The translations under genes were made by a program, and so were the position numbers. The notes beneath the pieces were generated by a model. The model saw only the letters and a list, made by a program, of their open reading frames with translations. It was not told the origin of the DNA and ran no database searches. A stretch of 64,000 nucleotides of DNA. Origin: Halorussus marinus. Its GTDB lineage: Archaea; Halobacteriota; Halobacteria; Halobacteriales; Haladaptataceae. Location: positions 186,001-250,000 of the forward strand of contig NZ_SBIV01000006.1 in the NCBI RefSeq assembly GCF_004765795.1, written 5' to 3'. Positions within the stretch are counted from its first letter, which is position 1, and each line of letters begins with the position of its first letter. Below are positions 34,176 through 37,000 of the stretch, one piece after another.

Positions 34176-34648
34176 CTCATTCGGACCGCCGGAGGTACGG
34201 CGGTCCATACATTCGGACGGGCAAACAGACGCACACCCGACCGTACACGGAGACGGACGTAAGTACGTACACGAGCACGTACACTGCGGTGTACACGACT
34301 ACGAACACAGACACTCAATGGCGGACGCGTCTACGTACCGGGGGGACGATGGGTGTGCTTCCACTCGCATACGTTTTTACCGCCACGTACGCCGGTTTTC
34401 ATTTGGTATCCGCGCGAACGGTGTTACCTCTCTTATCTGTGTAATCCCCCTACCTGAGAGTATAGCGTGTCATAGAAATAGCCACAGCCGACTCGATGCG
34501 GTGCAAACGGATGGGGCGATATGTTGGACTGAGTATGATTACAGAAGGCAGTGCAAGATATAGAGAATCTATTCAGCAGATGTCAGCACTCGTTTCTCCG
34601 CTAATCAAATGAATTAACTGGCAACACAGACTGTGGAAGTGAAAACCT

Positions 34649-34798
34649 CTACTCGCCGCCGACAATTTCCTCAAGTTCCTCTCGCAGCGCTTCTAACTCC
34701 TTATGGCTTGAGTCGCTAATCTCTGAATTCGACGAACTCTCTTGGAATTGCGGCGTGTAGTCTGGGTCGTCCTCGGACGGCCAGTTTGGGGAAACCAT
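34649..34798 (-). CDS. 49-residue acidic protein with Pup-like Gly-Gly-Glu C terminus
   Basis: A small gene 5 bases downstream of the Ntn-hydrolase stop, on the same strand. The protein begins MVSPNWPSEDDPDYTPQF, continues as a Ser/Glu-rich disordered stretch, then one predicted helix (KELEALREELEEI, residues 33-45), and ends VGGE. A disordered N terminus, a C-terminal helix and a terminal Gly-Gly-Glu are the visible features of bacterial Pup, the proteasome-targeting modifier, although length and sequence otherwise differ and Pup is not expected in haloarchaea. Being coupled to a proteasome-like gene, it may be a substrate, modifier or regulator of that enzyme. No Pup ligase or Mpa-like ATPase is visible in the window. 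Confidence 0.72.
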   Translation of the reverse strand: MVSPNWPSEDDPDYTPQFQESSSNSEISDSSHKELEALREELEEIVGGE

Positions 34799-34803
34799 AT
34801 CTT

Positions 34804-35613
34804 TCACCTAAGTGGATCTATGTCGGCATCGTTGATAGTATTTTCCCGAGCGGTACGTTCTGCCTCACGAACGTCTTCGATTACATTTTGGATGGTTTTG
34901 ATACGGTCGGTGTCAAGGAAACTAACCTTATCGCCAACTACCGCAATGTCCATTTTGTCGCCTACACCCTGCGCTTCACCGGCCTGATTCTTTGCATCAG
35001 CTGCCAGCATTAGTGCATCCTCAAGATTTTCGGGATCGTATCCATTCCGCATGAACGTCAGACTCGCAGAGCCGGCACCCGAACCAATACACTGAAATCC
35101 GAGTGAACGGTGTCGGGTAAGACTCCCGTCTCGAAGTTCGAGTATCTGAGCGCCATGATCGTCATCGACGCCTGCGATGAGCATATTTGTTCCTCCCTGA
35201 ATGTCCTGCTTAAGATCACTGATCTGTGACATAAATTCAGTGACCATATCGTCGCTCAGTGGAACACCTTGATTCGTTAATTGATTTAGGGTCAGGTCGT
35301 AGTCTGCCAGAATCTTATTGTTCGCCTCGTCACGAACAATCGCGTGAATCTCGTCAACGAAGAGTTCACCAACTGCTTGAACTGTATCAGGCGATTCCTC
35401 AATGATTCGATTCCCTACTCGATAGTAAAGTTCGTCTGCGTATGAGAGCGTTCCTGCAGCGACAGCTGCCACAGCGGGGTTTCCAGCGGACACCATCTCA
35501 AGTTTGCCGTCAGAATGTTCGTGCTCAACCGCCCCTGTCGTTACCATTCGGTCTGCTATTAATACTACAGCTGGATCATCGCCGTTGTATGCGGCACCAA
35601 TTCCAACAGTCAT
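34804..35613 (-). CDS. Proteasome beta/HslV-like Ntn hydrolase
   Basis: A 269-residue protein beginning MTVGIGAAYNGDDPAVVLIADR. Removal of Met would expose Thr1 without a propeptide, as in HslV. Further Ntn-hydrolase features are ADR (Asp/Arg near 20-22), GKLEMVS (the Lys33-equivalent near 36), the turn QCIGSGAGSASLTF near 172 and the acidic GVGDKMDIAVVGD near 216. A C-terminal helical extension (about 225-269) is longer than in HslV. It could be a self-compartmentalised protease, or a ligase or transpeptidase like connectase. It differs from host proteasome beta subunits, which carry propeptides. A TATA-like ATATTTAAC lies about 25-33 bases upstream of the ATG. Confidence 0.82.
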   Translation of the reverse strand: MTVGIGAAYNGDDPAVVLIADRMVTTGAVEHEHSDGKLEMVSAGNPAVAAVAAGTLSYADELYYRVGNRIIEESPDTVQAVGELFVDEIHAIVRDEANNKILADYDLTLNQLTNQGVPLSDDMVTEFMSQISDLKQDIQGGTNMLIAGVDDDHGAQILELRDGSLTRHRSLGFQCIGSGAGSASLTFMRNGYDPENLEDALMLAADAKNQAGEAQGVGDKMDIAVVGDKVSFLDTDRIKTIQNVIEDVREAERTARENTINDADIDPLR

Positions 35614-35635
35614 TGTATATTATGTAAAAGCCAAC

Positions 35636-35648
35636 TTAGTTAAATATG
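35636..35648 (-). promoter_or_regulatory. Probable promoter of the Ntn hydrolase gene
   Basis: On the minus strand ATATTTAACTAAG precedes the ATG (35613) by roughly 25-35 bases, the spacing expected for a haloarchaeal TATA box with a very short leader. Confidence 0.55.
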
Positions 35649-35757
35649 GCTTCTGAATTAACCGATTAACTTGTCCTCGGTACTGACCGATACGCGCCCT
35701 GTATCTTGCACGCGAGTCCTAACAAGACTGGGACAGGAACTGCGTGCGAAGCTTTCT

Positions 35758-35964
35758 ATGACACGCTATGAGAGTATGCAACCAGGGTTCATTGGGGGAA
35801 TCCCCGGGAGAATTGAAATAGGAGGAGTGTTGATTCTCGGAATATTACTCTTCGGTGCAGATCGAATCCCACGGCTCGCTCGCAGTGTAGGCGAATCGAT
35901 AGGCGAGCTCCGATGCGGGCGGGAGACGATTGAGGATGAACTGCAGGACGATGACGAAGACTGA
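35758..35964 (+). CDS. TatA/Hcf106-like membrane protein
   Basis: A 68-residue protein. A short N terminus and Gly-Pro hinge (FIGGIPGRIE) are followed by one membrane helix (IGGVLILGILLFGADRIPRL, about 20-39), an amphipathic helix (ARSVGESIGELRCGRETIE) and an acidic tail. The LLFGADRIPRLARSVGE stretch matches the TatA core, in which FG-x-x-x-hP-x-hAR is conserved. TatA forms the protein-translocating assembly of the twin-arginine system. An extra TatA-like gene in a mobile cargo block is unusual; pore or membrane-stress functions are possible. The ATG at 35758 (or 35776) is preferred to the longer upstream reading from 35671. Confidence 0.75.
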   Translation: MTRYESMQPGFIGGIPGRIEIGGVLILGILLFGADRIPRLARSVGESIGELRCGRETIEDELQDDDED

Positions 35965-36127: not shown

Positions 36128-36280
36128 GGCGCGTAACACGTAATATGACCGCGGTCCGGATTCGTGTTACCCCTTTCGGAGTTCCGGACACACCCCCTCC
36201 CTGAGACAAGGAAAACTAATCTATTCCATACCGGCAAGGAAAGTGCCCTCTTTGATAAGAGCACACCGGTTAGATTGGGT

Positions 36281-37000
36281 ATGGCCGAAACACCCTCCCA
36301 GAACACTGCAGCCTACGTCCGAGTCAGCACAGCTGACCAAGACGCCGAACGCCAACGCGAATCAATCCTCAACGAATACGACGAAGACACGATCGACTGG
36401 TTCGTGGACATCGAGTCCGGGGCGTCACTCTCCCGTGACCAATACAACGACATGCGCGAGTCCATCGATGACTACGACGTCATCACCGCAACTGAGATCG
36501 ACCGGCTCGGCCGATCGTTCAGCGAGCTCGCATCTTTTGTGGAAGAGCTCCGGCAGAAAGACATCGGGCTCAACCTCACACAGCAACCCATCGACACGAC
36601 TAACGAAGACGACTGGATGGCTGATATGTTGTTGAACATGCTGATAGTGCTGGCAGACGCTGAACGCAAGATGATTCAGGACCGCGTGCAGCAGGGTGTG
36701 GATAAGGCGATGCGAGATGGGAAGCGCGTTGGCCGCCCACCGTTCGGGTACGACGTCGAAGACGGGTTTATGTACCAGGACCCAGCAGAATACAACCGCG
36801 CCCAGAACTTCATCAGGGAAGTCAAGAAAGGACGTGCGAAGAGCACGACAGCGGATTATTTCGAAATTCCCCAGTCCGCGGTACAGTCCATCTTGAAGCG
36901 TTCACATCAAAACTACGAAATCCCGTTCGACAACGACTTGTGGACGATCGAACGAGCGAAGGTCGAAGCCGGGGAGAAACTGTTAGAACCGCTCGAATAG
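36281..37000 (+). CDS. Serine recombinase (resolvase/invertase family)
   Basis: A 239-residue enzyme. The catalytic N-terminal domain reads AAYVRVSTADQDAERQ (active Ser near residue 17), DIESGASLSRDQYNDM (second Arg), TATEIDRLGRSFSEL (Arg pair near 73) and the E-helix MLIVLADAERKMIQDRVQQG (about 115-135). A short C-terminal HTH follows (GRPPFGYDVEDG, then STTADYFEIPQSAVQSILK). All catalytic residues appear present, in contrast to the relative at 24622. It may move or invert the surrounding block, whose repeats (34079, 37493) and a GTAC-rich palindromic tract (37165-37235) lie near. The ATG at 36281 is the only start ahead of the catalytic motif. Confidence 0.88.
   Translation: MAETPSQNTAAYVRVSTADQDAERQRESILNEYDEDTIDWFVDIESGASLSRDQYNDMRESIDDYDVITATEIDRLGRSFSELASFVEELRQKDIGLNLTQQPIDTTNEDDWMADMLLNMLIVLADAERKMIQDRVQQGVDKAMRDGKRVGRPPFGYDVEDGFMYQDPAEYNRAQNFIREVKKGRAKSTTADYFEIPQSAVQSILKRSHQNYEIPFDNDLWTIERAKVEAGEKLLEPLE

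Follow-up and report, generated by a model that had tools for sequence, protein, structure and literature searches.

Gene pair and mobile element at the locus

The window analysed here, a stretch of 64,000 nucleotides from Halorussus marinus, carries two adjacent minus-strand genes enclosed in a short element (Table 1). The first gene opens with ATG-ACT, which makes Thr residue 2 of a protein beginning MTVGIGAAYNG, and its product matches PF00227 (Proteasome) at 24.8 bits, above the curated Pfam cut-off of 22.4 bits; sequence searches further returned weak matches to proteasome alpha models and chains. The second gene starts with ATG 5 nt after the first, and its product ends in EEIVGGE (LEALREELEEIVGGE). 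A preliminary description of this DNA had reported a proteasome-like Ntn hydrolase in which Thr comes immediately after Met and, 5 bases further on, an acidic gene of 49 residues ending VGGE, and both points are confirmed by the profile match and the reading-frame coordinates. The profile searches that it proposed for both proteins placed the hydrolase, but for the small protein none of Pfam, NCBIfam, PHROGs and PADLOC gave a significant match.

Table 1. Positions of the two genes and of the element parts within the window
Feature	Position	Strand	Remarks
Ntn hydrolase, proteasome-like family	34804..35613	-	269 aa, Met-Thr start
Acidic partner protein, 49 aa	34649..34798	-	Unstructured N-terminal part, one likely C-terminal helix
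Transposase-less element carrying the pair, 1,305 bp	34464..35768		Congeners G019 (L097) and G012 (L099) have the exact empty site CCTACCTGAGAGTATGCAACC
Target-site duplication TGAGAGTAT, left copy, 9 bp	34455..34463		Empty-site comparison
Target-site duplication TGAGAGTAT, right copy, 9 bp	35769..35777		Empty-site comparison
Left end of element, terminal AGCGTGTCATAGAAA	34464..34578	+	Recurs in haloarchaeal plasmids, beside other genes
Right end of element, same terminal repeat inverted	35677..35768	-	Recurs in haloarchaeal plasmids

The pair had also been described as a mobile two-gene unit, which is borne out by the 9-bp target duplication and the exact empty sites in two congeners. The 1,305-bp element contains no transposase; with its terminal inverted repeats, target duplication and empty site, it has the features of a transposase-less (MITE-like) element with cargo. 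Elsewhere in the genome, related terminal repeats flank a fragment of a DDE transposase (PF01609) and a ~150-bp MITE-like piece, and the left (~115 bp) and right (~92 bp) ends recur beside unrelated genes on plasmids of other haloarchaea. On plasmid NZ_CP098520.1 of Haloplanus sp. HW8-1, for example, both ends enclose a single hypothetical gene of ~114 aa (L156, 8494-9079). Judged from these sequences, the element is one of a family of cargo carriers that lack a transposase and are probably moved in trans. The end family was also seen in L148, L149, L150, L151 and L152, and viral contigs contained 28 scattered single matches to the terminal repeat.

Several other genes lie beyond the element. 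A TatA-like gene (PF02416; 35776-35964) starts 8 nt past the end of the element, whose insertion has pushed the gene's own upstream region 1.3 kb away; that region is intact in two congeners. Further along are a serine recombinase (PF00239 resolvase; 36164-37000) and a McrB-like AAA ATPase followed by a McrC-like protein (PF10117; 37850-40836), the latter two likely forming a restriction system.

Catalytic residues and predicted fold of the hydrolase

Numbered from the Thr, the conserved positions of the hydrolase comprise Thr1, Asp20, Arg21, Lys36, GSG (176-178) and GVGxxxD (215-221). Across 16 aligned sequences, Asp20, Thr24, Glu29, Glu31, Lys36, Gly53, Gly176, Gly178 and the GVGxxxD motif are invariant (16/16), and Thr1 is present in every sequence with an intact N terminus. 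The sole exception is L008 (G250:C1), which lacks its N terminus, apparently because the reading frame is broken there, while its small gene is intact; a sequencing error or decay of the copy would account for this. Loss of the Thr1/Lys active site among homologs had been named beforehand as evidence against the proposed interpretation, and the opposite was observed, since the catalytic residues (Thr1, Asp20 and Lys36) are kept. The missing propeptide is nothing special: Fuchs et al. 2021 (PMC8665760) report that, proteasome beta and HslV apart, the proteasome-like homologs have no propeptide.

An AlphaFold2 model of the hydrolase (pLDDT 87.9, pTM 0.83) matched beta and alpha proteasome subunits across the PDB in Foldseek (E 1e-11). 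As modelled, the protein is a proteasome fold with an additional helical insertion, in which two helices (108-112 and 120-139) come after H2 (77-104) and before the strand that follows it (142-149). H3 (179-188) and H4 (196-210) are joined by a short loop of 7 residues (189-195), and a long C-terminal helix spans residues 234-261.

Fuchs, Alva and Lupas (2021) described 22 uncharacterised proteasome-like families, for which no genomic context or co-occurrence pattern hinted at function (PMC8665760). Set against those published descriptions by structural features alone, the modelled hydrolase fits PHI best, sharing the proteasome fold, Thr1/Asp/Lys, the lack of a propeptide, the helical insertion after H1/H2 and the long C-terminal helix with a family that occurs in Euryarchaeota and lies close to the proteasome clusters. 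In contrast to the gene pair described here, no small downstream partner has been reported for PHI (PMC8665760). PMI-1 to PMI-4 are Group II proteasome-like homologs that occur in Euryarchaeota (PMC8665760), and PMI-3/4 have an insertion after H1/H2 as in our model, but PMI-2 to PMI-6 carry an extra H3/H4 insertion where the model has only the short loop. The alpha and beta subunits of the 20S proteasome and HslV share the fold and catalytic residues, although the hydrolase is only ~16-21% identical to them in structural alignments and differs in its extra helical insertion, its lack of a propeptide and the absence of a linked unfoldase. Separate canonical proteasome genes are also present in the haloarchaeal relatives, where they were seen as partial matches.

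Distribution of the hydrolase

The clade of the window hydrolase comprises 11 copies in 10 of the 469 genomes searched in four haloarchaeal families; for the window's own family the query was the single protein only, and the other genome searches were made within the same phylum. The nearest copy (L003), from Haloarcula argentinensis, encodes a hydrolase 93% identical to that of the window, with ~91% DNA identity over 1,155 bases. Because the two genomes belong to different families, one or both acquired their copy recently. The Haloarcula copy retains inner parts of both element ends, so an element of this kind was probably the source of its pair. The remaining nine haloarchaeal copies, recovered by protein and profile searches, are 27-36% identical to the window hydrolase, and identity among these distant copies reaches up to 52% when the L018/L008 pair is excluded. 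More relatives were found elsewhere in the phylum.

No relatives turned up in the viral contigs, phages or plasmids searched, and an origin of the hydrolase from viruses or plasmids was rejected on this ground; phage proteins in the structure library matched the general proteasome fold only (query-normalised TM 0.3-0.5). A second hydrolase clade is represented by L118 (6331-7706) and L117 (7384-8767), which are 51% identical to each other. Their partner is an upstream putative membrane protein of 184-195 aa (36% identical between the two, no Pfam match), and neither has a small downstream gene.

Linkage of the hydrolase to a small downstream gene

Of the 11 haloarchaeal copies, 10 have an ATG-started ORF of 41-69 aa whose start lies -14 to +9 nt relative to the stop codon of the hydrolase. 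Such an ORF follows 4 of 76 control genes, a set of other long genes taken from three sources: the window, the Haloarcula contig and the proteasome-alpha loci (Fisher p = 3e-9). Merging near-identical copies gave a similar result (8/9, p = 9e-8), and the ORF is acidic in 8/11 copies versus 1/76 controls. The linkage of the two genes is real and exceeds chance. It is not universal, since no small downstream ORF was found at the haloarchaeal copy L027 or in the group L057/L058/L061, and thus the partner may not always be needed or may sometimes be encoded elsewhere. The preliminary description had asked whether a small gene with a GG[E/Q] end always follows the hydrolase: among the haloarchaeal copies adjacency holds except at L027, but the ending does not.

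Comparison of the neighbourhoods of the hydrolase copies revealed no third gene common to them, which points to the pair as the unit; a conserved third partner was accordingly rejected. Integrases, a ParA-like gene, DNA methylases and a PIN-domain gene occur near some copies, as do the McrB/McrC-like genes in the window. Such neighbours fit accessory DNA, without proving a defence role.

The small proteins themselves evolve rapidly. Between the window and Haloarcula, 43 of 49 residues are identical and six differ, with LEALREELEEIV unchanged while the tail varies (GGE to DEE). The reading frame is free of frameshifts in both close pairs (window/L003 and L018/L008), and dN/dS for window/L003 is ~0.3-0.6 over 49 codons, a weak sign of constraint. 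More generally, the small proteins have little sequence in common beyond one short helix-like stretch, such as LSDEQRDELLSEL / LSQQEREKLLDELL, for which a shuffle test gave p<0.001 for this pair and 0.001-0.02 for a few others. In other Halobacteriota, a tiny ORF likewise lies behind each of three more distant relatives (L060, +5; L064, -4; L063, +22). Their products are basic and those of haloarchaea acidic, a contrast that adaptation to different salinity would lead one to expect. In a read-through fusion model of the L028 pair, the last helix block of the partner reached pLDDT ~73 versus 48-66 in the preceding segment, suggesting that the partner is helical, with its last helix slightly better defined than the segment before it.

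Alternative explanations for the pair

Readings of the small protein as an inhibitor or regulator, as a dedicated substrate, or as the substrate of a ligase need no Gly-Gly motif and are all possible. A protease with a dedicated substrate would cleave the small protein and set free a peptide with a signalling function or an effect elsewhere, with the helix as recognition element. Translational coupling of the two genes and a small protein that is disordered, evolves fast and has one short conserved helix are consistent with this arrangement, but inspection of the small proteins revealed no common cleavage-like motif or export signal, and we regard it as unlikely.

We also consider it unlikely that the pair is a toxin-like protease with its inhibitor, serving addiction or abortive infection, in which the small protein silences the hydrolase until its loss or titration sets the enzyme free. 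A two-gene cassette carried as transposon cargo, its patchy distribution (10/469 genomes, four families) and the McrBC, DNA methylase, integrase and PIN-domain genes near some loci would suit such a system. However, neither protein matched in PADLOC, the order of hydrolase then inhibitor is the less usual one, and the defence neighbours are inconsistent from locus to locus.

Connectase, an archaeal proteasome relative without a propeptide, is a member of the proteasome family that ligates (PMC8665760), so that the hydrolase might similarly form an acyl-enzyme with a peptide and attach this peptide to a second protein, with the small protein as donor or acceptor. Connectase lacks helices H1-H2 and carries a two-helix insertion at S3/S4 (PMC8665760), whereas the window model has H1/H2 and its insertion follows them; moreover, the small proteins share no common terminal motif and several lack lysine. 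A connectase-like ligase is therefore improbable.

A chance ORF beside a hydrolase that functions alone would explain the missing ORF at L027 and the quick divergence of the small sequences, but is highly improbable given the excess over controls (10/11 vs 4/76 overall, p = 3e-9, and 8/11 vs 1/76 for acidic ORFs) and the intact frames in window/L003 and L018/L008.

The least credible reading is the analogy with Pup put forward in the preliminary description, in which the small protein is a modifier acting with its protease. The window protein ends in GGE, and its general plan, a tiny and probably disordered chain with one C-terminal helix, resembles Pup (PMC3511204), as does its linkage to a gene of the proteasome-like family. 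Nevertheless, the C-terminal Gly-Gly-[E/Q] of Pup occurs in the window copy only: its homologs end in VDEE (Haloarcula, with the 93% identical hydrolase), ELGE, VDEP, IEDL, TGDE, ADDE, AQDR, ESED and KLDG. The Pup ligase family PafA/Dop (PF03136) had no match in the whole window genome, with a positive control in Corynebacterium glutamicum. Homologs lacking the Gly-Gly-Glu end had been named beforehand as refuting this idea, and it was rejected on both the missing motif and the missing ligase. What survives of the earlier interpretation is thus the Ntn hydrolase with intact catalytic residues, the linked tiny helical gene and the mobility, without the Pup analogy.

A candidate two-component module

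Our preferred reading, to which we assign a probability of about 0.45, is a self-contained module in which a proteasome-like Ntn hydrolase is bound and controlled by a helical small protein. It draws on the predicted fold, the catalytic residues, the linkage across relatives, the insertion event and the family of element ends. In particular, the catalytic residues are invariant in full-length homologs, and the small ORF is adjacent far more often than behind controls. The common helix-like stretch, the retention of LEALREELEEIV, the pLDDT of ~73 in the last helix and the ORFs at L060, L064 and L063 argue in the same direction. Against the module stand L027 and L057/L058/L061, which have no small gene, the weak similarity among the small proteins, the slight pLDDT difference in the fusion model and the weak dN/dS constraint.

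Under the module reading, the hydrolase would mature by losing Met1, which exposes Thr1, and would go on to cut or transfer peptides. The small protein, co-translated with the hydrolase, would most likely dock through its single amphipathic helix and assemble, gate or inhibit the enzyme, with its disordered remainder acting as a tether. For movement in trans, the element itself would probably rely on a DDE transposase that has matching ends.

At the same tentative probability, these genes may represent an overlooked archaeal two-component system that has spread partly as transposon cargo and joins a proteasome-like enzyme to its own tiny helical protein, which is encoded just downstream and would either control the enzyme or be acted on by it. 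More than twenty proteasome-like families have no known function or reported gene context (PMC8665760), and the accessible text of a 2026 review citing Fuchs et al. adds nothing on gene context; within this open-access literature, the linked tiny gene thus appears unreported. If the module reading is true, the small protein would be the first conserved gene partner for these uncharacterised proteasome homologs. A conserved tiny partner would provide a direct experimental handle on such families, requiring two proteins and simple assays, and would mean that a proteasome-like enzyme moves between haloarchaeal families as a self-contained cassette.
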